42,896 nucleotides of DNA from Planctomycetaceae bacterium. Lineage in GTDB: Bacteria > Planctomycetota > Planctomycetia > Planctomycetales > Planctomycetaceae. Under the pieces are notes generated by a model. The model was given only the letters and a program-made list of their open reading frames with translations, did not search any database and was not told where the DNA came from. This document shows positions 353 through 40,587 of the stretch, piece after piece (position 1 is the stretch's first letter; each line of letters opens with the position of its first letter). The translations under genes were made by a program, and so were the position numbers. The stretch is from positions 1 to 42,896 of the forward strand of contig JAKFVC010000071.1 of assembly GCA_021732415.1 (NCBI GenBank). The letters run 5' to 3'.

Positions 353-3300
353 TTAAGGAATTGCCTGAATCTGACGAGTGGCCTTGCTTGTATTCATGCC
401 ACCAAGATTCGTGATCTGGAATTCCAACGTACGGTTTCCCGTTGCCTTACCGGCGGCTTTAAAACCAATGCTGCGGAGCAACTTCTCCACCGAGTCATGC
501 GTTGCCGCACCGTTCAACGTCACGGACAGAGGGGCACCCTTCTTTCCAATCGAGAGTGTTCCAATCACCGTTTGGCCAAACAAGACGTTTTTCCCCTTAG
601 TACTGATGTCATTCTGTTTCAGAATCGACAACTTGTCCTTTGCCGAGTGACCGGACACTTTCAAGATTGAGTGGTCAAATGACGTTGCTGGCGGGCTGAG
701 GTTCGAGATCGTCGCGGTGCTGTCGATTGCCGCTACGCCCTTACCCGAGATATGAAACACGAGCGGTGCTGAATTCAACGTGATGATTGCGGAAAACTCT
801 GCGACATCCGTGATATTAATCGTTACGCTGGCTACGTCAGTGGCGCCGTCGTTGTCCGCGACTTGAATGGACAGATGGAATGACGGAGACGATTCGAAAT
901 CGATTCGCGCCGAATTGGCGACCGCAATTGCACCCGTCGACGAGTCGATCTTAAACGCACCCGAGGAATTGCCAGAGATGATGCTGTACGTCAACGTGTC
1001 ACCGAGATCTACGTCAGTTCCGACTACTGACCCGACGGCTGTGTCGAGCACAGAATTCTCCGTCAAACTGAACACGGCATCCAGAATACTCGGTGCATGG
1101 TTGATTGGAATGTTGACGGCCGTCTGAGTGTCCGCGGTGAGCGGTGCGGCCTCCACATGGCCGACGTTGTCCGTTGCGACGGAATAGAAGCGATAGGTGT
1201 GCTCGAACTCGCCGACGTAGTTGGAGGAGATTGCCGTCGTGTCATCGAGCCACAGAGTGAACGAGCCACCATTGTCCGAGACGAAGAGATCATAGGTCGC
1301 GAGTCCCGAACCTCTGACTTCGTCGATACCGGACCAGGCGACAGCGAATGTCTCGGTGATGGTGTCGGCAGGCAACGCCGTCACCTGGCTGGTCGGAGCG
1401 TGCGCGTCGATCGTAACGAGGGCTTCTTTGTCAGGGTCCGTTCCCGCTGCCGGGTTGTGCGGATCGAGTTGATTCGTGGCGATCGCGGAATTCGTATCGA
1501 ACACGATACTCGCGACAGACCGGATTGCCGTGCCACTCGTGAGACCGGCCAGCGGACGGATCACAAATTCAACGAAGCCCTCACCGCGATGTTGCTCATC
1601 GTTCGGCGGCAGGAATCCAGCCAATGCGGCTTCAGGCAGTTCGCCGGTTGCCGGATCGACCGAGCGGAGAATCCAGGTCACGACACGCGTCGCGGGATTC
1701 AATGCCGCAGAGAAATCCACGAACAAGGGCGAGTTATCTGGATTCATAAATTCCACACGAGTCGAGTAAGACTGCAATCCGGCAGGAACATGAATCATCA
1801 GCGGACCAAAGCCCACGTCGCCCAATTCGAACGTGGCGAGATCGAGGTTGGCATTCAGCGTGTGAGTAACGAATACTTCCTGAGCCGGTGCGGTCGCGGC
1901 CGATTCATTTTCAAAGTCGATCACGAATGGCAACGGGGCATCTTCCGCCAGGAAGTTTTGCGGACCAAATCCCGCAGGACCAATGATGTCATTGGGATCC
2001 AGCGCATGGACGCCTGGAATTCCCTTCATCGGACCCGATATCCGCGGTCCCACTTGGGGTGGCACGGGGCGAGGTAAGGCTGGATTGGTACAACCGGAAC
2101 CACTGGATCCACCGGGACCGGCGTTTGGCGGATCTCCATACTTATTGGGAGCCAGAACTTTCTGAAAATCACCCGATAGCTGTTTCAACTTAAAGTCTCG
2201 GTAGTTCTCGCTGCCCAACCTTGAAGGGTCAATTGCTTTCAGATCCTTGATCAGCTTATCGACATCACGCTTGTATTCCGGGTCGTATTCCTGCCTGATG
2301 TCGAAGGCCGGTTTGAGTGTCAGATCGAGTGGGTTCGGTGCCAGCTTTAATTTAAGTGGGTTAGGGCAGAGCTTCCCGATATCAATTTTCTGTAGTCCAC
2401 TGGGATCAATCGCATTAGTCGGATCGTTTCCGACATATGCCCGCAGATTGGTATCCCCGCCGCTGAGGTTGAGCGGGTCGTCGCTGACGAACTGCCCCGT
2501 CAGCGAACTGTAGTTCCGGAAGTGCATCAACTTCAATCCGTCACCGGCCGTTTGGACTCCAAATTGGCCAACGAATTGGAATCGATTCGACACCGTCGAC
2601 TGAATCGTGGTCGTCTCACCAAATGGAAGATACGTGTAGCGGTTCACATAACCGCCATTCGACGCGGTAAGTCCCACTGTGTTCCCAGTGGCATCAAAGT
2701 CGAAGTACGTCGCTGACCCGTTGGCGGCCACCCGGCTGGTCAGCCCCAATCCATCCGTATAATGTGCGATCAGCGCTCCACCTGGGCCGTATTCAGCGGC
2801 GATATTCACCAAGTGCGTGGGATCGATCAGGAATTCGGTGCGGACTCCATTCTGGCTGCTGGCACGGCGGTTTCCGAAGGCATCGTATTCGTAGGCAAAA
2901 GTGCCTGTCGGACCGTCTACAGACAGCAACTGGTTCTGATCGTCATAGGCGTAATTCGTGACGTCGGTCGGATCGCTAGTTCGCACTAAATTCCCGTCCG
3001 GATCGTAATAGAAGCTGGTGTCTCCGGCACGAATTATCTGATTCAGATTGTTCACTTCGTAGATCGTGGTCCCGAGCTGGCTGTCGGCCACCTGCGTGCG
3101 ATTCCCGTTTGCATCATACGAGTAGGCAATGGTCCTGCCGCCCGGTAATGCGACTGACACCAGCTGCCCGATCGCGTCGTATCCGTAGGTCGTCGTCCCG
3201 TCTGCCGTCGCCAGATTGGAATCGGTGAGCGTCATCGTGCTCCGGCGGCCTTCTGCATCGTAAGTGTATTCAAACTTCGAGTTCACGACTCCGGCCGATG

Positions 3301-9300: not shown

Positions 9301-10063
9301 AGACATCGACGTGGCCATTACTGTTGTTGGGCACGAGGTTGGTCGCACCGCTTTGAAATACCACAAATCGACCGTCATCACTGATCGAAGGAACTCCAGT
9401 GGTAGGACCGTTAGTCGCGCCGTTGTCTCCTGTCATGTTGACACTAACGAGATGCGTCACTCCAGTGATCAAATCTCGAACGAAGACCTCAGGGTGTTCG
9501 GCGAATCCGATCGACACATCGATGTTGGCGTCCAGATTTGTCGCCTTGCTGTAAAAGACAACAAAGTGGCCATCAGGAGTCACATGGGCGTCTGTGCTGG
9601 CTCGATTTCCGCTCCCCGTGCCCTGCGCATTCTCACTGACCAGACTGACCTGCCCGGTGCCTCGGTTGTAGACGAAGATGTCTGGCAGACTGTTGAAGTC
9701 ATTCGGGACCAGGTTGTTAGCCTGGCTTTCAAAGACGATGATTTGACCGTCAGCACTAATGGAAGGGCTGTCTGAGGCCCAGGGATTGGAGTAGGTGTCG
9801 GCACCGAAACCGGAATCACCCCACACACTGGGATCTGCGAGCGTGATGGGATCCACCGTCAGCAACGTGCGGGCTTCCAGCGATTCTACCGAGCCTCGGA
9901 GGTCGTGGCACTTCCAGAATGACCGGGCGTTGCCGGCAGATTGCTGGCGTCCCTTTCGCGGACGTGTGGCAGCGTTTAGATAATTAAGCCACGCCGTCCA
10001 GTTGAAGCATTTCATCACGGGAGCCATTCTAGAAGTACGAGTTCTAAGCGATTGCAGTCGCAT
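353..10063 (-). CDS. Giant secreted PD40/SdrD-B/CARDB/RHS-YD repeat protein
   Basis: This 3236-aa protein is probably exported or surface-attached. The N-terminus carries LEARTLLT (residues 62-69), resembling the planctomycete LEPR-XLL motif. Next come 16 TolB/PD40-like repeats with cores like SADGRFVAF (about 70-1095), an SdrD B-like domain with DTDGDG (about 1106-1200), a CARDB-like domain (about 1213-1330), a PPC-like domain and a TIG-like segment. The RHS/YD core runs from about 1755 to 2556 and ends in the classical DPLNLSGGDTN / NAIDPSGL region. A 127-residue variable segment follows, then a conserved DPNDIIGPAGFGPQN domain, Fn3-like and cadherin-like domains, and a C-terminal domain shared with the second giant gene. 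ATG at 10063 has a weak GGGAA upstream; Met17 is an alternative start. It follows the kinase gene after 389 nt. Substrate and partner are unknown. A ten-G run lies in the coding strand at 4687-4696. Confidence 0.9.
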   Translation of the reverse strand: MRLQSLRTRTSRMAPVMKCFNWTAWLNYLNAATRPRKGRQQSAGNARSFWKCHDLRGSVESLEARTLLTVDPITLADPSVWGDSGFGADTYSNPWASDSPSISADGQIIVFESQANNLVPNDFNSLPDIFVYNRGTGQVSLVSENAQGTGSGNRASTDAHVTPDGHFVVFYSKATNLDANIDVSIGFAEHPEVFVRDLITGVTHLVSVNMTGDNGATNGPTTGVPSISDDGRFVVFQSGATNLVPNNSNGHVDVYLRDLLNNTTTLVNHTPSGGSANESGEQAVISGNGQFVAFYSTADDLVPTDANTAGDLFLFNRVTGNVKLITENITHDGSANSGGQTLSPQSISADGRFVAFISSATNLAANSSGFTNAAFLRDTQTDTTYVLSPNKLGNGTVSAINVVITPNGHFVGLLTNASTLASDVAQDTNGNYDVFLADIRDLDHISRRMVSVNTAGTNGGNADSGNGDNLGGFTFANGYPQITADGRYVAFGSLATNLVTGITDENTPNLRRDVFLRDMQSNVTQVISLAPDGLHTGNSGSYLPTISSDARVIAFVSNATDLAPGNVDGNGQKDVFVRDLSVQFTELVSAHSPFMPDEVLIPQGVTLSLDDVTPDGRYVAFVTNSAYLTPEISSSQFSYHAYVRDRLTGVVEQVSVAANGTDAGTTSGVVRISADGRFVAFRSSVNSAAFDPGTVDTNGGADLFVRDRLTGVTTLVSAIPGGNTTSSSSVRSELAISPDGRYIVYTSVATDLVSGVASAGEYDLYVWDRVTGTTRMVDVNAAGTAAGNTGSVSSHNLYWPSFSADGSTLVFTTNSSDLVAGVTDTNGTDDVFVYKLSDGTKQLVSSSTTANLTGNFGSGRGSGGGLDQGHGRPTISADGRYVAFGSDASNLTVPAGNGTQVYRRDLLSGTTDLVSINSTGLAGGNLGSIAPFISADGQKVLFQSSSTNLPSLSTNSQIQVFLRDFSGQTPTTTIVSINSSGTAGGNNTSLIQPDYPTGTRFTADGRYVIFLSRSTDLVSGYVDGSTFGYDLYLRDLQTGRTSLVSYNYSGTASVDKGVSDGIAGHGSSYFLAATGPTVVFDTKSSDMIPGDRNNSPDLFAFTYQGDGRISGTLFEDTDGDGSKDGNEDGIPFRTVFLDANNNRRFDAGEISVQTDLSGNYVFTGLAAGTYSVSTVIDDGFVRTVPAGIAATYSATLATDTSSVTGLSFGALPAVADLNVSLVTVDPTAKTGQNVEVSWIVRNVGANSISNDFQDALFLSADQTLDASDTLLATVPHVGSLAAGSLYAGHADVTLPAVTSGDYFVIVQTDRRYQVPHETNRANNVLTSLSPTTVTLPVLPLATPTASQFSSVGENHYYQVNVAAGQTLSVVVDSAAADGATELYVSRLHLPTPGDYDYAAVAFQPDQEVIVETTTAPGVYYVLACSRLSGATPGFTLTAKTVGFELTGIDHSLGENTGRVTLEIDGSRFTEATTFSLVSGGITIPAMSINFRDSGSLFATFDLTGRGAGSYDVVAVDGANSDTLPAAFQIVPSPGVSLVNPYLINVITPDALRQARQSSILIQYTNTSNVDQPAPLLEVVSNTRMRLEQQQVLVGDFNVDTGIDFLGIAPDGPAGILRPGQTGSQRVIFLTQPGEQGFTANFQVNVLDPGGTTAIDWSLYKSEMRSPAVPDDAWDAIFATFLTQVGTTTGDYVRLLGDNATYLSQLGIRTPDVSRLLGFEVQQASGAYAANDNPGVTDAALTASGADLVFARQFNNDIAGRYRMGPFGRGWSDNWDISATVDNAGNVILKGGGAFRYFTLQADGSYAGGTGEMGTLTLVSGAYRLQELGGAIQQFRSDGKISFVEDRNGNRISAAYDGSGRLQTLSTNAGGVNVALTYNAAGRISTLTDSNGGTVTYTYDVAGEQLIGYTDRYGSHVYSYVTGQGAQREHGLAEIAYSDGTHIRYAYDSQGRQIERKRDDDQERLTFDYDSAAGITVTAASGGSTTVLFNDAGRSELARNSLGQTTQYDYDLNNQLSRVVTPTGLIYSYQFCACGSPLSTTDPLGHTVTFKYEDPFRKLVEYTDAKGVATHYDYDSLGNLESITYADGSHQQGSYDSAGNLEEITNRRGHEIDIEYDTRGRVTSTTFADGTSQTFTYDSHDNLAKVTDASGDTIFTHDPVTDALTKISYPSGRFLEYTYNAINQRTQSTDQDGFIVNYHYDTLGRLDKLTDGTSALIVDYELDAAGRLVRRDNGNATFTTYQYDALGQLLTLINFASAGVVNSKFEYTYDAEGRRSTMTLTDSNLATADGTTTYGYDAIGQLVSVALPGGRTIAYSYDANGNRTQVADSQLGTTIYEVNNLNQIIRAGDTSFYYDPDGNLVRTSDPTDVTNYAYDDQNQLLSVDGPTGTFAYEYDAFGNRRASSQNGVRTEFLIDPTHLVNIAAEYGPGGALIAHYTDGLGLTSRVAANGSATYFDFDATGNTVGLTASNGGYVNRYTYLPFGETTTIQSTVSNRFQFVGQFGVQTAGDGLKLMHFRNYSSLTGQFVSDDPLNLSGGDTNLRAYVGNDPTNAIDPSGLQKIDIGKLCPNPLKLKLAPNPLDLTLKPAFDIRQEYDPEYKRDVDKLIKDLKAIDPSRLGSENYRDFKLKQLSGDFQKVLAPNKYGDPPNAGPGGSSGSGCTNPALPRPVPPQVGPRISGPMKGIPGVHALDPNDIIGPAGFGPQNFLAEDAPLPFVIDFENESAATAPAQEVFVTHTLNANLDLATFELGDVGFGPLMIHVPAGLQSYSTRVEFMNPDNSPLFVDFSAALNPATRVVTWILRSVDPATGELPEAALAGFLPPNDEQHRGEGFVEFVIRPLAGLTSGTAIRSVASIVFDTNSAIATNQLDPHNPAAGTDPDKEALVTIDAHAPTSQVTALPADTITETFAVAWSGIDEVRGSGLATYDLFVSDNGGSFTLWLDDTTAISSNYVGEFEHTYRFYSVATDNVGHVEAAPLTADTQTAVNIPINHAPSILDAVFSLTENSVLDTAVGSVVGTDVDLGDTLTYSIISGNSSGAFKIDSSTGAIAVANSARIDFESSPSFHLSIQVADNDGATDVASVTINITDVAEFSAIITLNSAPLVFHISGKGVAAIDSTATISNLSPPATSFDHSILKVSGHSAKDKLSILKQNDISTKGKNVLFGQTVIGTLSIGKKGAPLSVTLNGAATHDSVEKLLRSIGFKAAGKATGNRTLEFQITNLGGMNTSKATRQIQAIP
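4687..4696 (-). repeat. G10 homopolymer tract inside the RHS gene
   Basis: Ten consecutive C on the plus strand read as G10 in the coding strand. They encode three glycines and the first base of an alanine codon (residues 1790-1793) near the start of the RHS core. Gain or loss of one base would shift the frame and remove the RHS core and everything after it. The second giant gene has no such run at the equivalent place. Confidence 0.9.
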
Positions 10064-14376: not shown

Positions 14377-14495
14377 TCGCGTCGCTTGAATCCGCAGGAA
14401 TGGCCGCGCAGCACCTGCCGGCCCAAGGATCCGCGTCTGCCTGAGCAGGAAAATCTGGAACCTTCTGCAGGAATAACGAGAGCGTATAACGCCAA

Positions 14496-15092
14496 TTACA
14501 GAAAATCTTGAAAATAGATGCGTAAGTGCCGCAGCACACGGTACTTCGCTTGGCGGACGGCCCCTGCTGACATCTGCAGATCCAGTGCGACATCGAAAGG
14601 ACTCTGCCCCTCGATCACTAGTCTCTCAAAGCAAGTCCAAGACTTCGGGTCGAAGTCCTCGCGAATCAAATTTGCGGCTTGTTTCAGCAGCTGTCCTTGA
14701 GACTTCACCAAGTCGGGACAGAACTCTTCTTCCAGCAGGTCCGGCACTTCCAAGAGCCGCCGTTGAATCGCTTCCCCTCCGGGAACCTGCGGTCGCCTGT
14801 CACGCGCACGGATAAGATCTCGTGTCTTGTTAAGGGTAATGATCCACAACCATCCACGAAAAGTCCCGTTTTCCTCTGGTCGGTAACGAGGTAACGCACG
14901 ATGTACGACTTGAAAGACCTCCTGCATCACGTCAGCGGAATCGTCATTTTGCAGTCGAAATCCGCGCGCCCATCCATACACAACTCCTCCATAGAGTTGT
15001 ACCAGCCGTCGCCAGGCAGCAGGATCGTTGCTGCTAACGAGTTGCAACAGGCTTAAAGAAGTCGTCGACGGCTCATGAGAAGGCGGTGTCAT
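14496..15092 (-). CDS. RNA polymerase ECF-type sigma factor
   Basis: 198 aa, the usual ECF length. Region 2 is recognisable at residues 20-90, with the core-binding motif DSADVMQEVF (51-60) and the aromatic -10-melting part ending in FRGWLWIITLNKTRD. Region 4 (about 150-192) is a helix-turn-helix around FDVALDLQMSAGAVRQAKYR. Region 3 is absent, as is typical. It is the first gene of a minus-strand set that continues with the zinc-motif kinase and the giant RHS gene. In planctomycetes such sigma factors are often found beside Ser/Thr kinases. The regulon is unknown; the two downstream genes are the obvious candidates (inference). No strong Shine-Dalgarno sequence precedes the ATG. Confidence 0.9.
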   Translation of the reverse strand: MTPPSHEPSTTSLSLLQLVSSNDPAAWRRLVQLYGGVVYGWARGFRLQNDDSADVMQEVFQVVHRALPRYRPEENGTFRGWLWIITLNKTRDLIRARDRRPQVPGGEAIQRRLLEVPDLLEEEFCPDLVKSQGQLLKQAANLIREDFDPKSWTCFERLVIEGQSPFDVALDLQMSAGAVRQAKYRVLRHLRIYFQDFL

Positions 15093-24771: not shown

Positions 24772-24863
24772 TTCACGGGATTGGTACACCACTACACTGT
24801 CGTGACGTGTTTTCGTAGGTTATAGTGTTTCAACACTCACAAATTGCTCACCCGGTATGCGCA

Positions 24864-25427: not shown

Positions 25428-25623
25428 TGGAGGATCGAGAGGCGGCCGCAGTTGGAAGCTCCAGACCGTTATTGAGTTGCGGGAATCTCTTTCGTTAATC
25501 CCGGCTCGAGATTTCACAAAAACATTGACCACGTGACAGAATTCGGAAACGACCTGCGTACTGATTAACGGAGAGACAGACAATCCATCGTAAGTTCCGC
25601 TCGACACAATTCCCCCACGAAGA

Positions 25624-28600: not shown

Positions 28601-30645
28601 CGGATGGACGGCTGTTAGCCGTGGGCGGAAAGGACGGGACGGTACGAATTCACGATCCCCTCACCGGAGAATTGAAACACAAATGGTCCGGAGGTCTCGG
28701 CGAGGTGAGGCATTTGCGGTTCAGTCCGGATGGCCAGATGTTGGTCTCGTGCGGGACCGAGAAGTGCTTGATCTGGGATTTGCAAGGCAATATCAAGCGG
28801 ACGATCACGGCGAAAAGTGGTAACTGGCGCGGCCGCCCCGTCGAATTCAGCGGCGACAGTCAGCGGCTCGCCATTAACGGTTATCATGATGCGCAAGGGA
28901 AGCGGGTCTGGCATGCCGTGACCGTCATCGATGTCGCGTCTGGGGATGTCGTCGCGACACTTCAAGGCCACACTCGCCCCGTCAATTCCATTCATTTCAC
29001 TCCTGATGGCTCTCGAATCGCTACTGGGTCGGAAGACAATCTCATCAAAATCTGGGATGTCGACAAGGCCTCGGAACTGCTTACCTTGCGCGGGCATTCG
29101 GGGGCCGTCACGGACGTCAAATTTACCCCGGATGGAGTCAAACTGGTTTCCGCGAGCACCGATGCCTCGGTCATCATCTGGGACACGGCCCCGGTCAAGG
29201 CCCCGGCGGGACTGTTTGCGGCTCAATTGCCCAAAGATGCTGGTGCACTCCTCTATCAGTTGAAGTCCAAGGTTCCGCGCTACAATGGTGGGGTCACTGA
29301 CCTTCAGGTAGAACAAGGGCAGACAATCCACCTGAGCTTTGATGGACAGTTCGACCTGAAGGACATCAGTCCGATTTTTGAACTACGCCAACTCTCCTCG
29401 CTCAACTTGCGAGACACCGGTGTTGCCGATCTGGCGCCATTAGTCTACCTGCCGTTGAAACGCTTGAACCTGCGGAACACCCGCGTGACAGACCTGCAGC
29501 CGTTACGCAGGATGCCTCTGGAACAGCTTGATCTACGAGGCACACCTGTCACAGATCTATCGCCCCTGTCAGGCCTGCCGGTGGTCCGTCTGTGGATTGA
29601 TGCGCATGTCAAATACGACGACGCGTTCGTCGCGACACTGCCAAAGCTGGAAACAATCAACGGATTACCACCCAATACATCCATTTCGAATCGGCAAACG
29701 GAACGCGTTTTGGCGGGACACGTGGGCGAAGTGCTGGGAGTTGCCTTACAGCCGAAGGGACGATTCGTGGTGTCAGGAGGCATCGACGGCACGCTGCGCC
29801 GCTGGGACATGGATCACCTCGATGTCGCACCGCTCGTCCTGCAGCACCCAGTCGCGGTGACGTGTGTCGGCTACTCACCCGATGGCCGCTGGGTTGCTTG
29901 GTGTACGGGAGACAGTCGTCAGGGGACATTGTCGGGTTCTGTCTGGATCGCTCCGGCCGACGACCTCGAGGCGAAACGAGAATTACTTCGCGACCAGGCG
30001 AGTATCGAATGTTTGACCTTTGATCACACGGGACGTCGTCTGGCCGTCGGAAGTGGCGACGGGATCGTCCGCTTGTGGGAGTCCGAATCGGGCAAGTTGA
30101 TCTCAACCTGGACGGGGCACAAAGACCAAGTGTTGACACTGGCGTTTTCTCCCGATGATCAGGTACTGGCAGCAGGAACAGGAAGTTGGTCCGATCAGCA
30201 CAAGCCTGCGGAAATCACACTGCGGGAAATCTCAACTGGGAAAGTCACCAAGACATTTGGCGAATTTGGTGCAGTCAGGTCCCTCCAATTCAGCAAGACT
30301 GCCCAACAACTGATCGCGGCGATATCTGATCAGTATCGAGGTACTCATCTGCTTGACATTGAAACGGGAGTCTCGAAATTCCAGTTCCGCGGCCATGACG
30401 GACACAGCACAGATGAGGTCATACTCAATCAGGGCAAGCTTCTCGTGACAGTCGGCGAAGACCCGAATATCGTCTTCTGGGATCTGGCCACCCAGACCAA
30501 ACTGCTTTCCTTAAGCGGCCCCTCCGGTAAATTGCTGGCCATCTCCGCGTCAGCCGACTCCCGCCTCATCACGACCGCCGGAAGTGACGGCAAAGTGCGT
30601 CTGTGGACGGTTCCCGAATCAGTTCGGCCGAACAAGGCACCGTAG
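25624..30645 (+). CDS. Membrane Ser/Thr protein kinase with WD40 propellers and a leucine-rich insert
   Basis: 1673 aa. Residues 10-45 resemble an anti-sigma-like helix pair (DEQMRQFLQGTLTGADLAYV) without the zinc ligands. The kinase domain (about 98-380) has GRGGMG, Lys129 in VALK, HRD at 237-239, DFG at 257-259 and SPE at 284-286, all intact. A membrane helix (about 403-427) is followed by a coiled coil rich in Glu, Ala and Arg (about 430-525). WD40 repeats then fill about 580-1195, several ending in VWDA/IWDT. A short leucine-rich stretch follows (about 1255-1350, LNLRDTGVADLAPL-like units), and WD40 repeats resume to the C-terminus. It probably signals from the envelope; the bound partner is unknown. 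The open frame begins at TTG 25624; GTG 25636 is an alternative, and neither has a good Shine-Dalgarno sequence. The stop codon lies inside the left end of the element at 30642. Confidence 0.9.
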   Translation: MSHSVQAKPTDEQMRQFLQGTLTGADLAYVEAYLQVHANSAQMSEVTVVADPLLMPGRESPLDKKEGSNGTVEQLMQRLTQLPSEPGAIVGTRVRYFGDFELFEELGRGGMGVVLRAKQVTLQREVALKMILAGQLASPEAVERFRSEAQAAAHLDHPNIVPIYEVGKSDNYHYFSMKLISGRSLAEMHQESCVIRPGVAADSISVGQIRARERKVANLVKLLANAIHYAHQRGVLHRDLKPSNVLVDHSGKPFITDFGLAKRLDVDTTLTASNAIVGTPSYMSPEQAAGAKGITIAADIYGLGTILYELITGRRVFTSDSALQLLKLVQNAEPTHPRAIDPRIHQDLETICLKCLQKDPEQRYANADALQQDLQRFLNGEPIVARKVSVIERLRSWCRRNPLIASLTAGVFLSLALGTGVSSYFAIKASERAESERTQRGIAERKEQEARLATAAETVAKKLAQTKGTEAEAARQLALKREQEAKDLAVREKDARGQAERHEKEARTAEAEVVKKADALRHQVYRNTLSLAYREWLSNNGPQAVSLLNGCEKEFRGWEWNYLSRLTNLHLLEMKKDPNEEFSGAAFSPDGTRIAAAGELGTVIVWNAVTGQEFFSVKFLKPANAPFTRRVGTLKYSPDGTKLLVSCPDSKVRLLDAENGKELANYPGFDWGVGNVAFSPDGRRIAACGGHEGVVHSYTTRIWDTESRELLLNLVGHSHSVNGIAFSPDGEQLASAGQDRCVRVWDLRSGRTVLELPAEASELLGVSYSSDGRRILVGGTDSMIHVWDAKTGEPLRSMPGHREMVRTIASSRDGRRYVTASVDATAAVWNADTGERLWTLQGHGWNVNSAAFSPDGRRIVTAGADRRVKVWDATSDRQFQRLTAHRGAVTAMALSRDGRYAASLVMQGGSVTNEYALWDLATGELIRCDALFGVGFDNYLPYFVLDFGPDLQLAAGGSNPGGQHECRVWDALTGRTISNFPVESHVHATALSPDGRLLAVGGKDGTVRIHDPLTGELKHKWSGGLGEVRHLRFSPDGQMLVSCGTEKCLIWDLQGNIKRTITAKSGNWRGRPVEFSGDSQRLAINGYHDAQGKRVWHAVTVIDVASGDVVATLQGHTRPVNSIHFTPDGSRIATGSEDNLIKIWDVDKASELLTLRGHSGAVTDVKFTPDGVKLVSASTDASVIIWDTAPVKAPAGLFAAQLPKDAGALLYQLKSKVPRYNGGVTDLQVEQGQTIHLSFDGQFDLKDISPIFELRQLSSLNLRDTGVADLAPLVYLPLKRLNLRNTRVTDLQPLRRMPLEQLDLRGTPVTDLSPLSGLPVVRLWIDAHVKYDDAFVATLPKLETINGLPPNTSISNRQTERVLAGHVGEVLGVALQPKGRFVVSGGIDGTLRRWDMDHLDVAPLVLQHPVAVTCVGYSPDGRWVAWCTGDSRQGTLSGSVWIAPADDLEAKRELLRDQASIECLTFDHTGRRLAVGSGDGIVRLWESESGKLISTWTGHKDQVLTLAFSPDDQVLAAGTGSWSDQHKPAEITLREISTGKVTKTFGEFGAVRSLQFSKTAQQLIAAISDQYRGTHLLDIETGVSKFQFRGHDGHSTDEVILNQGKLLVTVGEDPNIVFWDLATQTKLLSLSGPSGKLLAISASADSRLITTAGSDGKVRLWTVPESVRPNKAP

Positions 30646-30972: not shown

Positions 30973-31224
30973 AGGCGAGAGTCGGGCTTCGGGCTGCTCG
31001 AATTTTTCTTTTTCACCACGACAGATCCGCACTTTCTGCTGCGTACTCTCTTCACGTCTGTGTGGAACCCCCAGAAACGGCCCCCTCGTCTACCTTCAGA
31101 CAGATTGTCGCACTCCGAAAGTCTCGGTTGTATCGATTAGACTGGTGAAAGTCGGTTTCTCGGAGTCGCGTCGGTGAATTGATCAAGACGAATCCCACCA
31201 TTGATAAATTGCAGGAAAGCGCCC
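30973..31224 (+). promoter_or_regulatory. Leader region of the second giant RHS gene
   Basis: 252 nt between the MITE-like element and the RHS start, without a gene. AGGA (31213-31216) lies eight bases before ATG 31225 and fits a ribosome binding site for that start. I could not fix a promoter. Confidence 0.4.
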
Positions 31225-34200
31225 ATGAAGATCTCAGCCTGGCTCCAAGATCTGAAATCTCGGTTGGACTGTGGGTTCTCAACCGCGTCGCGGATCAGTC
31301 GCAGCATGGTCCAGCGTCGTCCTCGGCGACTCACTCGCCAACGGCTGGCCGCACGCGTTGAAGCCTGCGAAGACCGGGTCATGCTGACAGTGGAACCGAT
31401 CACGCTGACGGATCCTCAGCATTGGGGGGACAGTGCGTCCGGCGTGTCGGGGGTGGTCAGCATCAGCGCCGACGGACAGCGGGTTGTGTTCGAGAGTGCC
31501 GCGTCGAACCTCGTGCCCAATGATTTTAACGGCACGGCGGATGTGTTCCTGTATGAGCGTGGCACCGGCCAGGTCAGCCTGATCAGCATTAATTCCGATG
31601 GCAGCGGCAGTGGGGACGAGGGAGGTTTCGGCCCCAAAATCAGTCCCGATGGACGCTACGTCGTGTTTCAGAGTGACGCTGGTGATCTCGTCACATCGCC
31701 GCCAATCAACAACGTGTTCGCGGGTCAGGTCGACGTCTATGTGCGCGATCTGGACACAGATCGGACGGTGTTGATCAGTTCGTACTTCGACGGCTCGCGC
31801 GACAGCAATAACTACAGCGACACACCGTCCATCGCGACCACGAGCGATGGTGGCTTGATGGTCGCCTGGGCCACGGTATCGGCCTTCATGACGCCCGGTG
31901 ACACGAATGGATTTCAAGACATCTTCGTCCGCAAGTTGAACTCGAATGGTACGCTGGAGCCGACGCAACGAGTCAGCGTGGGACCGGGAGGAGTTCAGGC
32001 AAATGATAATTCTTCCAATCCGGTCCTCAGTGGCAATGGCCAGGTTGTCGTGTTCGTCAGCACGGCCAACAACCTGGTACCCAACGACGACAATACCGCG
32101 CGAGACATCTTCGTGCACGACATTGCGACGGGCGTCACGGAGTTGGTCACGGTCGACACCACAGGTCTGCAGTCGGCCAACAACGAGGTTTGGACCACCG
32201 ATCACCCGATCAACTTCGACGGGTCGCGGATCGTCTTTCATAGTGCGGCCACCAATCTTTCGAGTCTGCCAACGGGAGGACAAACCCAGGTCTTTGTACG
32301 GGATCGCGTGACTGACGAGACTCGCATGGTGAGTGTCAATGCCGCCGGGACGGCCGGGATTCAGGGATATGACGCGGGAATCACCAGCAACGGCCGTTTT
32401 GTCGTCTTCACCAGCGACAACGATAACCTCGACCCGACCACGCCGGACATCAACTTTAGCACCGACATCTACCTGCGCGACTTGAACGACCAGACGACAC
32501 GGCTGGTCAGCGTCAACGCGGCGGGAACAGCGGCCGGAAATGACGATTCCGGTGCTCGGATTGGATTTGGTTTGGTGGGCTCGTTGATCTCGGCCGTTGC
32601 CAGTGACGACGGCCGGTATGTCGCTTTCCAGAGCCGCGCGAGCGACCTGACGGCCACCCTCGACACCAACGGCATGAAGGAGACATTCGTCCGGGATCGA
32701 CAACTGGGAGTCACCCGGGCTGTCGCTGTCAGTCCGACGTCAAGTGCCGGAAATGCAACGATCGATGCCTTCTTCCCCTCCGCCGTCAGTGCCGATTTTC
32801 GCTTTGTCGCGGTCGCCAGCAATGCCACGGATCTGATCAACGACGACGCGAACGGCAAACAGGACGTCTTCGTGCGCGACCTGTCGCAAGGCATCGTGGA
32901 ATTGGCCTCGCGCCGCAGTCCGTTGCTCCCGGCCGAGCAACTCGCGACAGCCGGCGGAACGTTGGCCGCCGCCACTCCGGACGGAAAATTCGTCGCGTTT
33001 ATCAGCTTCAACGCCTCTCAGTTTGATCCCGATGTCAGCAGCCATGTGGACGCAAGCTTGTTCGTCCGGAATACCCAGACTGGTGAAATCTCCGTCGCCA
33101 CGGTTCTGCCCAACGGCATCCAGGCCCCCAACGGTAGTGTTTTTCAGGCATCCTTCAGCAACGATGGCCGGTACCTTGCGTTCAACACCACGAAGGTTGG
33201 TCTGGATGCCACTTCCTCCGCGTTTGGCGGCGTCTACCTCCGCGACCTGCACACAGGAACGTCCAAACTGATCAGCCGCAATACGACCACGGGAACCACT
33301 GCGAATGCATTCAGCGGAAATAACGACGTCGTCGTCAGTCCGGATGGACGCTGGGTCGCGTTCGTCAACACTTCGACAAATCTGGTCAGCGGTGTCACAG
33401 TCTCCGGCGGGCAACCCAACCTCTATGTTTATGACCGCGTGAATGAAGAACTGCGACTGGTGACCATCGCGACGAGCGGCACGGCCAGCGGCGATGGATC
33501 GTCGCTTCAGAGCGAATATCGCCCCGTCTTCAGCGAGGATTCTTCGCGGCTGGTGTACGTCAGCAAGTCGAGCGACCTGGTGGCGGGTGTGACTGATGAC
33601 AACGGTTGGGCTGATGTTTTCGCCTACGATTTGACCGGGGCGAATGCCTTCCAAAACCGGTTGGTCAGCCAAAGTACTACCGCGAACGTGCCAGGGAACT
33701 TCATCTCGGGCGGTTCGGAAGGTCAATGGGCACCCTCGGTCAGTGCGGACGGTCGCTTTGTGGCATTTGCGTCAAATTCGACAAATATGGCCCCTGAATC
33801 AACAACCTTTGGTGTTCAAGTCTACGTTCGAGACTTGGTGAACAACACAACCCGGCTCGTGAGTTTAAACCAGTCCAATACGTCCGGCGGCAACGGTCCA
33901 TCGATGTTTCCGAAGATCAGCGCAGATGGCACCCGGGTATTATTTCAAAGTGGTTCGACAAACATCAGTCCGATCGCTGGCAATACAATCGCCCAACTTT
34001 ACGTTCGGAATCTGATCGACAATACCACGCAACTCGTCAGTGTCAGTTCCACGGGAACCTCGGGGAACCATCTCACTGGCGCTCTGTCGCAAGGCCAATC
34101 CGACCGCCCTGTTCTCAGTGCGAACGGTCGATATGTGGCCTTCAACAGCAGGGCGACAAATCTTGTCGCGGGACAAGTGCAGGTGGCGCAGTGGGACCTG

Positions 34201-37200
34201 TTTGTCCGAGACCTGGCAACGGGCATCACCGTGCTGGCGAGTGCCAATCATACCGGATTGGCGGGCGGTAATAGTCGGTCCTCGCCGAATTCGAATGCCG
34301 CGCAAGTTTACCTGACGAATGAGGGACGGGTGACTTTCGCCAGTGAAGCCAGTGACCTGTTCAATGGCGATCGCAACCTGCAGACCGATGTGTTCGCCTA
34401 CACCTACGCGGGCGGCGGACAGATCAGCGGCAAACTCTTCCGGGACGATGATGGATCGGGGGCTCAGAACGGCGCCGAACCCGGCGTGGTTTATCACACA
34501 GTATTCCTGGACGCGAACGGCAATCGCCGCTTCGATCAGGGTGAAGTCAACGTGCAGACCGACAGCAGCGGCAATTACCGATTCACAGGATTGGCGGCCG
34601 GGAGCTACACGGTTGCCACGGAGTTCGATACTGGTACTCAACCGACTGTCCCCGCCGCTCCCCACACGCGCTCCGTCACACTCGCCACAGCGACATCCAG
34701 TGTGACCGGGCAGGATTTTGGAGCTCAACCCGCGGTACTCGACCTGGCAGTTGATTCGGTGACGCTGACACCGGCGACACAACCCGGACAGCAAGTGACT
34801 GTCACCTGGATCGGAAGGAATGCCGGAGCGAATGCGATCACAACGTCGTGGCAGGATGCCGTCTATCTGTCTAAGGACGGTGAAGTGGATGAATCGGATC
34901 TGTTGCTGACAACCGTCGCGCAGATCGACTCACTCGGGGCGAATTCTGCTTACGTAGAGACAGCAACCATTACGTTGCCCGCTGTTCCTGAGGGAAGTTA
35001 TTTCATCCTGGTGCGAGCAGACCGGCGCTTCCAGATTGACGAACCGATTCGAACCAACAACCTGGCGGTGTCGTCCACAACCTTGAACCTGAACGTACCC
35101 AGCCTCTCCGTGGGCAGTGCCACGAATGTCCCGTTCGCCGCGACTCATCCCGACCACTACTTCCAGTTCACAGTCACTCCTGGTGAAGCATTGCGATTGG
35201 TTCTCAACAGTGCGGCAGCATCAGGACTGAGCGAGTTACTGATTGCCCGTGGTCGCTTACCCACGCCAGCGGATTTTGACTTTGCCGCGTCTGCGCAACA
35301 ACCGGACCAGGAACTTTTGATTCCGACAACACAAGACGGGACATACTATGTCCTGGCTCGAGCAATCGGAGGTGCCGCCGCAACAGCCAGCTTCAGTTTG
35401 ATGCCAACGCTCGTCCCATTCGGCATTGACGGCGTCGATGTCTCGATTGGCGGCAACACCGGGCGCGTGACTGTCGGCATCCAGGGGCAACGATTCAATT
35501 CAGAAACGCTCTTTCGACTTGAAGGTAACGGCACGACGATCAACACAGTATCGACGGTATTTCGGGATAGCCAAATGGTGTTTGTGACATTCGATCTGTC
35601 GGGACAACCGACTGGAGTTTTTGACGTGGTTGCAGTCAACGGCTCGACCACGGTGACGTTGCCTGCCGCGTTTACCATCTCCGAAACCCAGGAAAATCCG
35701 GTTGAAATCAACTTAATTACGCCAGGAATCATTCGGTCCGGCGCCGGGTCCACAACAGTCGTTGTGGAATACACCAACACCAGCAACGTCGATATAGCTG
35801 CCCCATTCATCGAACTGGCGAGCACATTTGCCAGACTAAGACTATCAGACGACGGTGACTATTCTGGCGACTTCGCCCAAAGTTCAATCCAGTTCCTGGG
35901 CATTTCCCAGGATGGCCCTGCGGGGATCTTGCGTGCGGGACAACGCAATCAGATGCGCGTGTTTTTGGAGCCAGCTTCGGGCATAGCGGAATTCCGGCTC
36001 GATCTAGAGGTCAGCATACTCGGGAACGACGACGAATCCATTGACTGGCAGGCAGCCAAGAGTGACCTGCGTCCTCAGGCTATGTCAACCCAGGCTTGGG
36101 ATGTGGTGTTCTCCAACTTTCTGTCGAGCGTCGGTTCCACGCCCGATCAGTTTCACGATGTCCTTGCCGAAAACGCAACTTATCTCAGCAATCTTGGCGT
36201 TCGAACGGGAAACATTGCTCGGTTGATGCAGTTCGAGTTTTCTCAATCCGCCGCGGAACTTCCCTTCTCGATCCTGGCCAGTGCTACGGATGTTGAGGTT
36301 CCGACACCAGGACTCACATTATCGATGGACCGATACTATGACGCCTCGCTCGAGGGTCGCAATCGTCCTGGCACGCTGGGATTTGGTTGGAGCAACCCCT
36401 GGGACATCACCATGAACGTGGAGTCCATATTCCAACCTGAAAGTATTGTGCGGGTCACTCAGGGAGGAATCGAACGAACCTTTTTCCGCGATACAAACGA
36501 TATTTTCACGTATCACGGAGCGCCTGGCGATCTCGCCACTGTGACTTTGAATATGAACAGCGACGTCTCTCGTGCGGTCGAGTTGCGAGAACCGGATGGA
36601 ACGCTGTTCGTCTTCAGCAGAGACATTCTCGACGGAATCCGTGCCGGTTTAGCCCGTATCGAAGATCCAGCCGGAAACCGAATCACTTTCTCGGGACGTA
36701 TCGAGCCCACCGGTCAGATTCTCGTAATAACACACACTTCGGGACCGCAACTGGAGCTGCAATTCAATCTCAATGGCAAGCTGAATCAGGTACACGAATT
36801 CATTGGCAATCAGCCAACCGATCGGGTCGTGACCTATGGATACGATACAACGTTTGAGCATCTGACAAGCGTCACAACCACGGAAGGCACGACACTGTAT
36901 AATTATGTCACGGGTCAGGGACCGGCGCGCGAGAATGCTCTCGCCTCGATCACCAGTCCCGATGGCACGCATGTTTTCTATGATTACGACGATCAGGGTC
37001 GGCTGGTCCGCGTGCGCCGTGATAATGACGTCGAAGAGGTGACTCTGGGCTATGACAGCGTCGCTGGTGTGACCTTCACAGATGCCGCTGGCTCCATGAC
37101 CATTCTCTATAACGATCTGGGACTGCCGGAACTTGTTCGCGATGCGCTTGGCCGTACGTCGCAATTCGATTACGACTCACACGGCAATCTGCTGCAGTCG

Positions 37201-40200
37201 ATTAGTCCGCTGGGGGCGACGGCCCAGTTCCGTTATGACGGGCGCGCTAATGTGATCGGTGCTACCGATCCGCTCGGCAACCAATTGTCCTACACCTACG
37301 AGACTCAGTTCAATCAACTGACCAGCCTCACCGATGCTCGCGGCAATATCACCCGCTACGAGCGTGATGCGAATGGTTCATTGGTCGCCATCACGTACGC
37401 CAATGGCAGCCGTGAGGTATTTAGCCGGGATGCCGAGGGCAGTCTGATCGAAACGGTCAATCGGCGAGGCCAGGCAACGCAGATTGTGCGCGATGCCCAA
37501 ACGGGCCTCGTTACCCGTGAGGACTTCGCTGACGGCTCGCATGTGGACTACTTGTATGATGCCGCGCGGCGACTGTTGACCGCGGCCCAGCAGATTCCCA
37601 CAGACAGCTTTCCGCTGACGCGCGTCACGACGTTCATCTACAACGACGCCGATTTTCCGGATCTGATCACACGCATCAATTCCTTTGGCGGGCGATTTCT
37701 GGAGTTCACCTACGATGATGGCGGCCGCCGCGTGCAGAGCGTCGATCAGGATGGCTTCACCGTGAAGTACACTTACGACACGGTAGGTCGCTTGTTTGAG
37801 GTGCGTGACGGCTCGGACGGGCTGATCACTCGTTACAGTTATGATGCCTTAAGCCGGATGACCCTGAAGGAGAACGGCAACGGGACATACACCACCTACG
37901 AATACGACGCAGTCGGGCAACTGTTGCACTTGGTCAATCGCGGTCCGCGACCGACTCTTGAGACGGAAGGACCCGTCAACTCGCGATTCGACTATACCTA
38001 CGACGCCGATGGACGACGGACGAGCATGGGAACTGTGGACGGAGTCACTCAGTACAAATACGACGCAGCCGGCCAACTGATTCTGGTCACTCTGCCCGAC
38101 GCACGCACCATCCAGTACGAATACGATCCCGCCGGGAACAGGACCCGCGTCATCGACAGCCTGCTCGGCACAACCGAGTACGCTGCGAATGAACTGAACC
38201 AGATCACCAGTGCCGGGGATACGACGTTCGCCTACGATGCCGACGGAAACCTGATCAGCGAGAGCGATTCGACCGGAACGACGATCTACACGTGGGACGG
38301 CCGCAATCAACTGCTGGGCGTCATCGGCCCCGATGGCACGTTTCGCTACGAGTACGACGCGTTCCTGGACCGGATCGCTGCCGACCGGAATGGAGTGCGA
38401 ACGGAGTACCTGATAGACCCCGTCGGTTTGGGAAACATCGTCGGCGAATATAGCGGGGCGGGACGAGTCAACTACGCCTATGGTTATGGACTCCTCGATC
38501 GCGTAGCGGGCGGCATTGCATCCTATTTCGACTTCGATGCACTCGGCTCGACGGTCGGCATTACGAACTCGGCTGGCACGTATGTGAACCGCTACAGCTA
38601 CCTCCCCTTCGGCGAGACCACGACTCACTCGGCAGTGCTCACCAACATCTTCCAGTTTGTCGGTGAGTATGGAGTGACAGCCGACGGTAATGGGCTGACC
38701 CACATGCGTCTGAGGAATTTCAGCACCGTCACCGGACAGTTTACTTCGGATGATCCGATTGGCTTGGCGGCAGGTGACCCGAATATTCGGCGCTACGTGT
38801 TTAACTCGCCGACGAACGGCATTGACCCGCTCGGTCTCTATGGATCCATTGGCGCGGGCGAGGTATTCACAACCTTCTTTATGGGCACGGGAACTTATGC
38901 TCAAGTGGGCGTCGCCCTCGCAGAAAAGGGACGAATTGGAGCAGAGCAGTATCGCGAAAAGGCAGTGGATCAGTTTCATAAAGCCAAGGACATAGACGAA
39001 GCTCGCAGGGCGCTCAATGAGATCGACTATGCGGATCGGAAAATCACGGACTACACCAGGAATCGAGACTACTACGTCAATCAAATAAATAATAAGCATA
39101 CTCATAAACCAAACACCGTACCGAAACAGTTTCCCGCGGCAAAGCGACGAGCGGACCTTGACAAGGCTCGAAAGAAGCGGCTGCGAGACTTCGTGCACAA
39201 TCTGCCTGGCGACCCCGCCGTAAAGGGAATCATTGAATACATCTTTTCCTTTGACCCCAACGACATCCAGGGCCCGAAAGGCTTCGGTCCGCAAAACTAC
39301 ATCCGGCGCGATTCGACGCTGCCCTACACGATTCATTTCGAGAATCTGGCCGCCGCTTCCGCACCGGCTTTGGAAGTCTTCATAACTCAACCGCTTGATG
39401 ATGACCTGGATCTGGATTCATTCGAGTTGGGCAATTTTGGATGGGGTTTATTCGAGATGGATGTTCCAGCCGGTATGCAGGCGTTTCATGAAGTTGTCGA
39501 CTGGACAAACCCGGATGGCAGCCCATTGACTGTGACCGTCGACGCGAGACTTGATAAAGCCACGCGAACTGTGACCTGGGCGTTTCGTTCCTCTGATCCC
39601 GCCACAGGTGAGTTCCCGGCAGACCCATTCGCTGGGTTCCTTCCACCGAATGACGAAGAGAATCGCGGACAAGGATTTGTGGACTATCTCGTGCGGGCGA
39701 AAACTAACGTGACTACGGGAACCGAAATCCGCGGTATCGCCACAATCATCTTCGATACCAACGATCCCATCACCACGAATCAGATCGACCCCGAAGACCC
39801 CAGTCAGGGGATTGATCACAACAAAGAGGCACTCGTCACGATTGACTCGGGAGCACCCGTCAGTCAAGTCGGCAGTTTGCCGGCGACATCGCCTCTCAGT
39901 TTTCCGGTCAGTTGGAGTGGCCAGGACGACGTGGGTGGATCGGGAATTGCGACGTACGACATCTACGTTTCGGACAATAACGGCTCCTACACCTTGTGGC
40001 TGGATGATACCGTCCTCGCAACATCCAACTTCTCGGGCGAGAACGGTCACACCTACAGGTTCTACAGCGTGGCCACCGACAACGTTGGCTTAAGTCAATC
40101 CACACCGGCTAGCGCGCAAGCCATAACGCTGGCCTTTGTCAACTCGGCCCCTGTGATTAGCGGTCAGTCCACAGTGACATACGTCAAGGGTCAACCGGCA

Positions 40201-40587
40201 ACGCTTGTCGCTCCCAACGTGGAGGTAAATGATGCCCAGGAAAATCTGGGCGGTGGAACGTTGAAGTTCACGATTACCGATGTCAAGTTTGGAAAGAAGC
40301 AGGTTCGTCCGGATGTGATTTCGACAACCTCGCTCAATGCCATCGGAGTTGTTTCGACACGCGAATTCGTCGGCGGAGTTGTTTCGATAACGGTTCAACT
40401 CGGGGCCAATGTCACGGCCACACAGGTGCGAAACGCGCTGAGATCCATCCAGTTTTCCACATCCGGCAAAGGACTAAAGGTAACAACGCGAGCGATCGCC
40501 GCTCAAATCACCGACAACAGGGGGGCTGTCAGTAATACACTTACGCAGACGATCCAGGTTCTGAAGAAAGTTCCAAGGCCACGATAG
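31225..40587 (+). CDS. Giant secreted PD40/SdrD-B/CARDB/RHS-YD repeat protein, paralogue of the left one
   Basis: About 3120 aa from ATG 31225 (MKISAWLQ), chosen because AGGA precedes it; the frame stays open to TTG 31201. A basic N-terminus is followed by VEACEDRVMLT, a LEPR-XLL-like motif (about 45-55). Sixteen PD40-like repeats (about 60-1058) lead to an SdrD B-like domain, CARDB (about 1171-1288), PPC-like and TIG-like segments, and an RHS/YD core (about 1706-2538) ending in SPTNGIDPLGL. A 138-residue variable segment follows (38839-39252), then DPNDIQGPKGFGPQN, an Fn3-like domain, and a C-terminal domain related to that of the left giant protein. The order of domains matches the left giant protein throughout; only the segment after the RHS core and the cadherin-like domain differ. 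It is probably exported and surface-bound. No immunity-like gene follows it, so a toxin role is unproven. Confidence 0.9.
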   Translation: MKISAWLQDLKSRLDCGFSTASRISRSMVQRRPRRLTRQRLAARVEACEDRVMLTVEPITLTDPQHWGDSASGVSGVVSISADGQRVVFESAASNLVPNDFNGTADVFLYERGTGQVSLISINSDGSGSGDEGGFGPKISPDGRYVVFQSDAGDLVTSPPINNVFAGQVDVYVRDLDTDRTVLISSYFDGSRDSNNYSDTPSIATTSDGGLMVAWATVSAFMTPGDTNGFQDIFVRKLNSNGTLEPTQRVSVGPGGVQANDNSSNPVLSGNGQVVVFVSTANNLVPNDDNTARDIFVHDIATGVTELVTVDTTGLQSANNEVWTTDHPINFDGSRIVFHSAATNLSSLPTGGQTQVFVRDRVTDETRMVSVNAAGTAGIQGYDAGITSNGRFVVFTSDNDNLDPTTPDINFSTDIYLRDLNDQTTRLVSVNAAGTAAGNDDSGARIGFGLVGSLISAVASDDGRYVAFQSRASDLTATLDTNGMKETFVRDRQLGVTRAVAVSPTSSAGNATIDAFFPSAVSADFRFVAVASNATDLINDDANGKQDVFVRDLSQGIVELASRRSPLLPAEQLATAGGTLAAATPDGKFVAFISFNASQFDPDVSSHVDASLFVRNTQTGEISVATVLPNGIQAPNGSVFQASFSNDGRYLAFNTTKVGLDATSSAFGGVYLRDLHTGTSKLISRNTTTGTTANAFSGNNDVVVSPDGRWVAFVNTSTNLVSGVTVSGGQPNLYVYDRVNEELRLVTIATSGTASGDGSSLQSEYRPVFSEDSSRLVYVSKSSDLVAGVTDDNGWADVFAYDLTGANAFQNRLVSQSTTANVPGNFISGGSEGQWAPSVSADGRFVAFASNSTNMAPESTTFGVQVYVRDLVNNTTRLVSLNQSNTSGGNGPSMFPKISADGTRVLFQSGSTNISPIAGNTIAQLYVRNLIDNTTQLVSVSSTGTSGNHLTGALSQGQSDRPVLSANGRYVAFNSRATNLVAGQVQVAQWDLFVRDLATGITVLASANHTGLAGGNSRSSPNSNAAQVYLTNEGRVTFASEASDLFNGDRNLQTDVFAYTYAGGGQISGKLFRDDDGSGAQNGAEPGVVYHTVFLDANGNRRFDQGEVNVQTDSSGNYRFTGLAAGSYTVATEFDTGTQPTVPAAPHTRSVTLATATSSVTGQDFGAQPAVLDLAVDSVTLTPATQPGQQVTVTWIGRNAGANAITTSWQDAVYLSKDGEVDESDLLLTTVAQIDSLGANSAYVETATITLPAVPEGSYFILVRADRRFQIDEPIRTNNLAVSSTTLNLNVPSLSVGSATNVPFAATHPDHYFQFTVTPGEALRLVLNSAAASGLSELLIARGRLPTPADFDFAASAQQPDQELLIPTTQDGTYYVLARAIGGAAATASFSLMPTLVPFGIDGVDVSIGGNTGRVTVGIQGQRFNSETLFRLEGNGTTINTVSTVFRDSQMVFVTFDLSGQPTGVFDVVAVNGSTTVTLPAAFTISETQENPVEINLITPGIIRSGAGSTTVVVEYTNTSNVDIAAPFIELASTFARLRLSDDGDYSGDFAQSSIQFLGISQDGPAGILRAGQRNQMRVFLEPASGIAEFRLDLEVSILGNDDESIDWQAAKSDLRPQAMSTQAWDVVFSNFLSSVGSTPDQFHDVLAENATYLSNLGVRTGNIARLMQFEFSQSAAELPFSILASATDVEVPTPGLTLSMDRYYDASLEGRNRPGTLGFGWSNPWDITMNVESIFQPESIVRVTQGGIERTFFRDTNDIFTYHGAPGDLATVTLNMNSDVSRAVELREPDGTLFVFSRDILDGIRAGLARIEDPAGNRITFSGRIEPTGQILVITHTSGPQLELQFNLNGKLNQVHEFIGNQPTDRVVTYGYDTTFEHLTSVTTTEGTTLYNYVTGQGPARENALASITSPDGTHVFYDYDDQGRLVRVRRDNDVEEVTLGYDSVAGVTFTDAAGSMTILYNDLGLPELVRDALGRTSQFDYDSHGNLLQSISPLGATAQFRYDGRANVIGATDPLGNQLSYTYETQFNQLTSLTDARGNITRYERDANGSLVAITYANGSREVFSRDAEGSLIETVNRRGQATQIVRDAQTGLVTREDFADGSHVDYLYDAARRLLTAAQQIPTDSFPLTRVTTFIYNDADFPDLITRINSFGGRFLEFTYDDGGRRVQSVDQDGFTVKYTYDTVGRLFEVRDGSDGLITRYSYDALSRMTLKENGNGTYTTYEYDAVGQLLHLVNRGPRPTLETEGPVNSRFDYTYDADGRRTSMGTVDGVTQYKYDAAGQLILVTLPDARTIQYEYDPAGNRTRVIDSLLGTTEYAANELNQITSAGDTTFAYDADGNLISESDSTGTTIYTWDGRNQLLGVIGPDGTFRYEYDAFLDRIAADRNGVRTEYLIDPVGLGNIVGEYSGAGRVNYAYGYGLLDRVAGGIASYFDFDALGSTVGITNSAGTYVNRYSYLPFGETTTHSAVLTNIFQFVGEYGVTADGNGLTHMRLRNFSTVTGQFTSDDPIGLAAGDPNIRRYVFNSPTNGIDPLGLYGSIGAGEVFTTFFMGTGTYAQVGVALAEKGRIGAEQYREKAVDQFHKAKDIDEARRALNEIDYADRKITDYTRNRDYYVNQINNKHTHKPNTVPKQFPAAKRRADLDKARKKRLRDFVHNLPGDPAVKGIIEYIFSFDPNDIQGPKGFGPQNYIRRDSTLPYTIHFENLAAASAPALEVFITQPLDDDLDLDSFELGNFGWGLFEMDVPAGMQAFHEVVDWTNPDGSPLTVTVDARLDKATRTVTWAFRSSDPATGEFPADPFAGFLPPNDEENRGQGFVDYLVRAKTNVTTGTEIRGIATIIFDTNDPITTNQIDPEDPSQGIDHNKEALVTIDSGAPVSQVGSLPATSPLSFPVSWSGQDDVGGSGIATYDIYVSDNNGSYTLWLDDTVLATSNFSGENGHTYRFYSVATDNVGLSQSTPASAQAITLAFVNSAPVISGQSTVTYVKGQPATLVAPNVEVNDAQENLGGGTLKFTITDVKFGKKQVRPDVISTTSLNAIGVVSTREFVGGVVSITVQLGANVTATQVRNALRSIQFSTSGKGLKVTTRAIAAQITDNRGAVSNTLTQTIQVLKKVPRPR

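Follow-up and report, generated by a model that had tools for sequence, protein, structure and literature searches.

ECF sigma factors paired with membrane kinases bearing a predicted class I anti-sigma domain recur in planctomycetes and are often followed by a putative exported protein

In cell-surface signalling of the FecI/FecR/FecA type, an ECF sigma factor, a membrane anti-sigma factor and a large outer protein are encoded in one row. Pairs of neighbouring sigma factor and kinase genes are also already known in planctomycetes (PMC8999054, PMC8103513), and a review names ECF43, ECF59, ECF61, ECF62, ECF217 and ECF283 as kinase-adjacent groups, several of them with planctomycete members (PMC8999054). 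According to section 3.4 of this review, the kinase stands in the place of the anti-sigma factor in such groups, the latter being usually absent, and the ECF43 sigma factors are without the acidic motif of region 2.2. A survey of planctomycete WD40 Ser/Thr kinases predicts, for its part, a cytoplasmic kinase domain and a periplasmic WD40 part (PMC11032199).

We analysed a stretch of 42,896 nucleotides (the window), which is an entire contig (C61) of a 9.87-Mb planctomycete assembly that is 98% complete. As the original prediction had described, it carries two mirror-image rows of an ECF sigma factor, a membrane Ser/Thr kinase and a giant protein of more than 3,100 aa, module A on the minus strand (15092 to 353) and module B on the plus strand (24825 to 40587). 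Module A is made up of sigma factor A (14496..15092, minus strand; Pfam Sigma70_r2, 4.5e-13), kinase A (10453..14376, minus strand; Pkinase, 3.8e-48) and giant A (353..10063, minus strand; 3236 aa), and module B of sigma factor B (24825..25427, plus strand; Sigma70_r2, 3.9e-17), kinase B (25624..30645, plus strand) and giant B (31201..40587, plus strand; 3128 aa). The open reading frame of sigma factor B begins with a GTG at 24825, the start used in the original prediction being an inner ATG at 24864. That prediction also saw the two giants as paralogues, and they share Pfam families and 43.7% identity across 3,025 aligned positions; the outer parts of the kinases differ as it proposed (a weak beta-helix match in A, WD40 in B), and the sigma factors are indeed distant (29% identity). 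The row of sigma factor, membrane kinase with a predicted anti-sigma domain and large outer protein is like that of FecI/FecR/FecA, with the differences that here the anti-sigma protein is a kinase and that the cargo varies; Pfam scans of the giants and of the third genes examined gave no TonB-dependent receptor. The modules are separated by a LamG kinase, a tyrosine recombinase, a DUF2924 gene and a serine recombinase. The first of these, with five LamG stretches, is the third kinase of the window (16027-20766, minus strand); it lies 934 bases upstream of sigma factor A on the same strand and is without the anti-sigma domain. The DUF2924 gene precedes the serine recombinase, whose open reading frame (22979-24313, plus strand) is without the start of the catalytic domain; as the missing start is found further upstream, in frame but beyond a TAA codon (region 22742-24313), this gene is interrupted.

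With a sigma factor gene adjoining a membrane Ser/Thr kinase gene, both modules of the window and at least 106 further pairs (see below) are like ECF43, ECF59, ECF61, ECF62, ECF217 and ECF283. They are unlike the kinase-linked ECF sigma factors of the review in that here an anti-sigma domain is predicted on the kinase, the DxxD motif is kept and a large putative exported protein often comes next. Kinase A has its kinase domain at residues 113-367, a single hydrophobic segment at 448-466 (1.75 on the Kyte-Doolittle scale) and the beta-helix match outside; kinase B has its kinase domain at 101-372, a hydrophobic segment at 403-421 (1.89) and WD40 repeats outside, and in this combination of kinase, one membrane span and external WD40 it is like the planctomycete WD40 kinases of the survey (PMC11032199).

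By homology, the sigma-linked kinases carry at their N-terminus an anti-sigma domain of class I, some 85 residues long. The sequence of kinase A opens with C-x24-H-x3-C-x2-C, the putative zinc ligands being C10, H35, C39 and C42, within a domain delimited at residues 1-95 (14092..14376, minus strand) by alignment, profile matches to PDB, a model with fold search, and the whole-genome search described below. In an alignment of 41 kinase N-termini, the histidine and the last two cysteines had served to choose the rows; the first cysteine, which had not, is invariant in 41/41. The profile of these 41 rows, compared with PDB, matched DdvA (8rlz, 2.9e-9), a CHAT-domain protein that shares the DdvA-type N-terminus (8rot, 2.5e-7), ChrR (3.8e-7 and 4.2e-7), RsiW (1.9e-6) and RslA (3hug, 7.8e-6), and nothing beyond such anti-sigma matches fell under 0.05, the next match being at 0.05. 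Pfam zf-HC2 was matched in 31 of the 41 N-termini at E<=1 (best 7.1e-7); the match of kinase A reaches 17.9 bits, below the cut-off of 22.2. An AF2 model of the domain (pLDDT 81, pTM 0.54) returned anti-sigma structures as rows 1-17 of 29 in Foldseek, as weak matches (best E 0.097), and re-examination of these rows with VIA gave Z scores of 7.6 for ChrR and 6.4 for RslA. The profile, the Hx3Cx2C motif, the weak fold match and the neighbouring ECF sigma factor are thus like those of class I anti-sigma factors (ChrR, RsiW, RslA, DdvA); unlike in these, the domain is here fused to a Hanks-type kinase that has a single membrane segment and, outside it, a large further domain.

Among the kinases of this genome, the domain is, as judged from motif and profile, restricted to sigma-adjacent ones. 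The HxxxCxxC motif occurs within the first 140 residues in 91 of the 106 sigma-linked kinases listed outside the window; it is missing from all 44 other kinases examined in this genome, namely 43 from the fetched loci and the LamG kinase of the window. A whole-genome profile search at E<=0.001 gave 13 places, which correspond to 8 sigma-adjacent kinases, a cut-off open reading frame after the sigma factor of C71, and 4 short open reading frames of 91-282 residues outside the set of kinase matches; in this genome with 92 Pkinase matches, no kinase away from a sigma factor was matched. The motif is present in kinase A and absent from kinase B and from the kinases of C54 and C78, and this search at E<=0.001 did not recover these last three either. 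The N-terminus of kinase B nevertheless scores 12.3 bits against the domain profile, with 44 control kinases at 2.1 or less, which makes it anti-sigma-like without zinc ligands. The 15 motif-less kinases among the 106 listed pairs score from 1.0 to 46.2, three of them at 5.0 or less; since 41 of the sigma-linked kinases had served to train the profile, only the remaining rows are informative for such scores. Zinc-free members are known in the class I anti-sigma domain class (PMC7406223). The distances between sigma factors and those between kinases are correlated (Mantel r 0.66, 0/2000 permutations), as is expected for partners. The main text of the WD40-kinase survey mentions neither zinc, zf-HC2 nor anti-sigma (PMC11032199), and an anti-sigma domain on these kinases goes unmentioned in the literature searched; priority is not established by this, and the ECF classification papers may already note it.

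The kinase could also act in the manner of EcfP/PknT (ECF43), the sigma factor needing phosphorylation by the kinase to become active and the N-terminal domain of the kinase being a mere docking site. In other ECF groups, too, sigma factors encoded beside kinases are predicted to be under control by phosphorylation (PMC8999054, section 3.4). The ECF43 hallmark, replacement of the acidic DAED-type motif by uncharged residues, is however absent from both sigma factors of the window, which keep an acidic DxxD in region 2.2 (DSAD in A, DAAD in B) and should therefore need no phosphate there. By a simple pattern, DxxD is present in 41 of 57 sigma factors of this genome and its relatives; 8/57 have no acidic residue in the stretch read, as would suit an ECF43-like control; the pattern misreads some sequences, probably some of these 8 among them. 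The acidic motif in both window sigma factors argues against ECF43-type activation, and so does the fact that the kinases begin with a homologue of anti-sigma factors; we regard such a mechanism as unlikely.

Both giants match PD40, SdrD_B, CARDB, DUF6531, RHS repeat and DUF7619 in Pfam (CARDB of giant B under the curated cut-off) and contain an RHS-associated core, with PPC and cadherin in addition in giant A. They are predicted to be exported. Near their N-termini they bear a LEPR-type motif like that of the planctomycete exported proteins of PF07595, LEARTLLT in giant A (9857..9880, minus strand) and CEDRVMLT in giant B (31366..31389, plus strand). PF07595 is a planctomycete cell-surface signal peptide according to PMC8567305, which cites Studholme 2004. 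Giant A matches it under its cut-off (E 0.047; 13.9 against 25.5 bits), and of 15 aligned N-termini with the export motif it matches 4 at E<=10 (best 1.4e-6); the motif residues E33 and R35 are invariant in 15/15. A C-terminal domain of about 119 residues in giant B (40207-40572, plus strand) is common to the third genes of C54, C7 and C131; its 29 genome matches at E<1e-15 indicate that it is not exclusive to such trios.

Between the RHS core and DUF7619, comparison of the two giants delimits a variable cassette (2000..2392, minus strand, in giant A; 38839..39252, plus strand, in giant B). The cassettes, of 131 and 138 residues, are little alike (25% identity over 55 positions, E 0.063), and the 180 residues before and after them are 60% and 56% identical. 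Such a divergent stretch after an RHS core between conserved flanks is what one would look for in polymorphic RHS toxins, in which case the sigma-kinase pair would control a weapon. The cassette is however internal, with some 440-550 residues still to follow, none of the Pfam families listed has a match inside it at E<=0.01, and an RHS match is absent from the other third genes, so that we hold this reading to be highly improbable.

Outside the window, sequence similarity led to further pairs in the same genome. Sigma factor B has 20 matches in it at E<=0.001, two of them inside the window, and gene calls in the neighbourhoods of the other 18 yielded nine sigma-then-kinase pairs. In C307 the kinase precedes the sigma factor, in C71 the kinase is cut off at the contig end, and in C3 a sigma factor, a kinase and a second kinase are followed about 10 kb further on by a third PD40/RHS giant. 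The protein next to the pair has the export motif, scored here by a fixed pattern within residues 1-175, in four of the nine (C54, C37, C7 and C131). The control consisted of 40 regions with other kinases, picked among the 92 Pkinase matches; in these, 36 next-gene positions were readable, and one has the motif (4/9 vs 1/36, p = 0.004; 6/11 vs 1/36, p = 0.0003, with the two pairs of the window included). If gaps of up to about 760 bases are allowed, the control rises to 3/36 (4/9 vs 3/36, p = 0.02).

The original prediction proposed a recurring three-gene system and suggested a search for the same order in other planctomycete genomes. We scanned a genome-contig database with 12 aligned sigma factors (at least 80 loci, the pattern stage demanding a DxxD sigma factor) and searched 17 relatives (81 places, of which 80 were taken in and G025:C15:50075 was left out). 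After removal of five duplicate sigma factors (L174, two of L188, L219 and L239), at least 106 distinct sigma-kinase pairs were counted outside the window, nine in the genome itself, at least 47 on database contigs and 50 in the relatives. In the 106 listed pairs, the next gene is on the same strand with the export motif in 11 and without it in 44, on the opposite strand in 29, on the same strand more than 700 bases off in 6, and not visible in 16. For next genes on the same strand of at least 250 aa, the motif is found in 11/41 listed pairs, the other 30 being without it, vs 28/989 other genes of the same loci, a background in which some matches look accidental and which includes the L174 copy of the L141 third gene (odds ratio 12.6, p = 7e-8, pairs being treated as independent). 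The excess persists with the genome itself and the L174 copy left out (7/36 vs 17/861, p = 2e-5) and among genes of at least 500 aa (10/28 vs 21/323, p = 3e-5), again among the pairs listed and with pairs treated as independent. Some pairs are kin (C7, C131 and L141 form one lineage, C37, L187, L191 and L192 another). Genes were called by a codon-usage score, a choice by length alone hiding the sigma factor of C3 behind an antisense open reading frame. Some starts remain wrong (L040, L093), and as the L093 giant was scored as motif-less through its wrong start, with the motif present at residue 243, the true number may be 12 rather than 11. These comparisons support a sigma-kinase order with an export-motif protein beyond chance.

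The closest listed match to the modules of the window is L138, from a Pirellulales MAG. Here the gene after the sigma factor and the kinase with the predicted anti-sigma domain codes for a PD40 protein with the export motif; the part encoded before the contig breaks off aligns with giant A over 883 positions at 47% identity. In L093, from a Singulisphaera MAG, the giant has CARDB and DUF7619 (46.6% identity to giant B over 292 positions) and no RHS match within the 2,232 residues read. L133, from a Planctomyces MAG, is a trio with an export-motif third gene, and L141, from Planctomycetaceae bacterium RYN_440, a trio with an A-type kinase, its sigma factor being identical in sequence to that of G001:C467, from a genome listed as the same genus. 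The recurrent third part is, on the evidence of motifs and families, an exported protein of varying architecture, PD40, cadherin, Calx-beta and DJ-1/PfpI all being represented. Even within one sigma-kinase lineage it changes from PD40/RHS in giant A to cadherin in C7 and to FG-GAP, Calx-beta and GEVED in C131. So the part of the original prediction that concerned a recurring order stood, and the RHS giant as its fixed third member did not. We compared 29 loci with giant-like matches, of which 26 are from other genomes and 3 from the contigs C50, C107 and C214 of this one. A same-strand kinase is seen beside the giant or one open reading frame away in two of them (L066, where a 340-residue frame intervenes, and L077), many contigs ending too soon to show one; in L072 a sigma-kinase pair lies some kilobases off behind opposite-strand genes. 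Given these 2/29 loci and the other cargo found after pairs, we reject an RHS giant as the constant third part.

Other arrangements were seen beside these. In the lineage of C37, L187, L191 and L192 (loci also listed: L047, L187, L191, L192), the third gene codes for a DJ-1/PfpI protein with the export motif in four genomes of three families. In L207, L208, L213, L220 and L234, a sigma factor and a short kinase of about 480-525 residues with the predicted anti-sigma domain are followed by a protein of 1,000-1,650 residues; these third proteins are without the strict export motif and several are weakly alike. In L042, a protein that combines WD40 with a caspase-like domain (Peptidase_C14; 10987-14082, minus strand) is encoded two genes after the sigma-kinase pair.

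The variety of the cargo also bears on the idea that the giant is itself a sensor or a co-receptor and acts back on the kinase, in a role like that of FecA towards FecR and FecI. The order of sigma factor, membrane anti-sigma protein and large outer protein is that of cell-surface signalling, and large repeat-rich exported proteins could bind ligands. A fixed co-receptor would however hardly differ inside one lineage, as the cargo of module A, C7 and C131 does, and by hydropathy no transmembrane stretch was found in the giants (best 1.52 and 1.40). We find this feedback very unlikely.

It may further be asked whether the sigma-kinase pair is real and the giant merely a neighbour under its own control. 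Gaps of 389 and 555 bases precede giants A and B, other genes follow many pairs (in G004, G007, G021 and G035, with several pairs each, no export-motif next gene was found among those listed), and most RHS giants seen elsewhere show no pair beside them. A search for a common promoter gave no signal either: in the upstream regions of the sigma factors and third genes, exact 5+4 bipartite words did not exceed dinucleotide shuffles, in sets of 8 (A group) and 7 (B group) regions that are small and diverged enough for a promoter to be missed. Against a mere neighbourhood stand the enrichment of export-motif next genes in three separate comparisons and the lineage of C37, which keeps its exported protein next in four genomes. 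It is thus rather unlikely, in our view, that the giant is independent of the pair. The literature searched makes no mention of export-motif or PF07595 proteins as third genes of sigma-kinase pairs, which does not establish priority.

The mirror image itself did not arise from a single duplicated block, an origin ruled out by comparison of distances and trees, since sigma factor A and kinase A are not sisters of sigma factor B and kinase B. Sigma factor A clusters with L141, C7 and C131, and so does kinase A. Sigma factor B is nearest to L093 and C54, whereas kinase B is nearest to L225 and L226; kinase B, an exception to the matched descent of sigma factors and kinases, may have been replaced at some point.

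On balance, the genes and their order make it somewhat probable that the membrane kinase is an anti-sigma factor which frees its sigma factor on a signal, and that the sigma factor then switches on the exported protein; we infer that the two bind, that phosphorylation brings about the release and that the exported protein is under the control of the sigma factor. The N-terminal class I anti-sigma domain of the kinase would hold the neighbouring ECF sigma factor in the cytoplasm, and being on the same side of the membrane as the kinase domain it could hold it at the membrane. The outer part, beta-helix-like in A and WD40 in B, would read a signal beyond the inner membrane. This signal would alter the kinase, in the simplest case so that it phosphorylates the anti-sigma domain or the sigma factor, which would then be freed; release of an ECF sigma factor upon phosphorylation of its anti-sigma factor by PknB has been reported (PMC8999054). 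The freed sigma factor would transcribe its own genes and that of the following exported protein. One might see in the sigma-kinase pair a conserved core whose exported cargo has been swapped.

The kinase-linked ECF sigma factors of planctomycetes are so far described, in the sources cited above, as controlled by phosphorylation and usually without an anti-sigma factor. If our reading is true, the kinase would act as an inhibitor as well as an activator. Many sigma factors would be given their partner at once, their possible targets could be read from the next gene, and the giant exported proteins of planctomycetes would have candidate regulators. Similar trios in other planctomycetes suggest a common control of surface or exported proteins.
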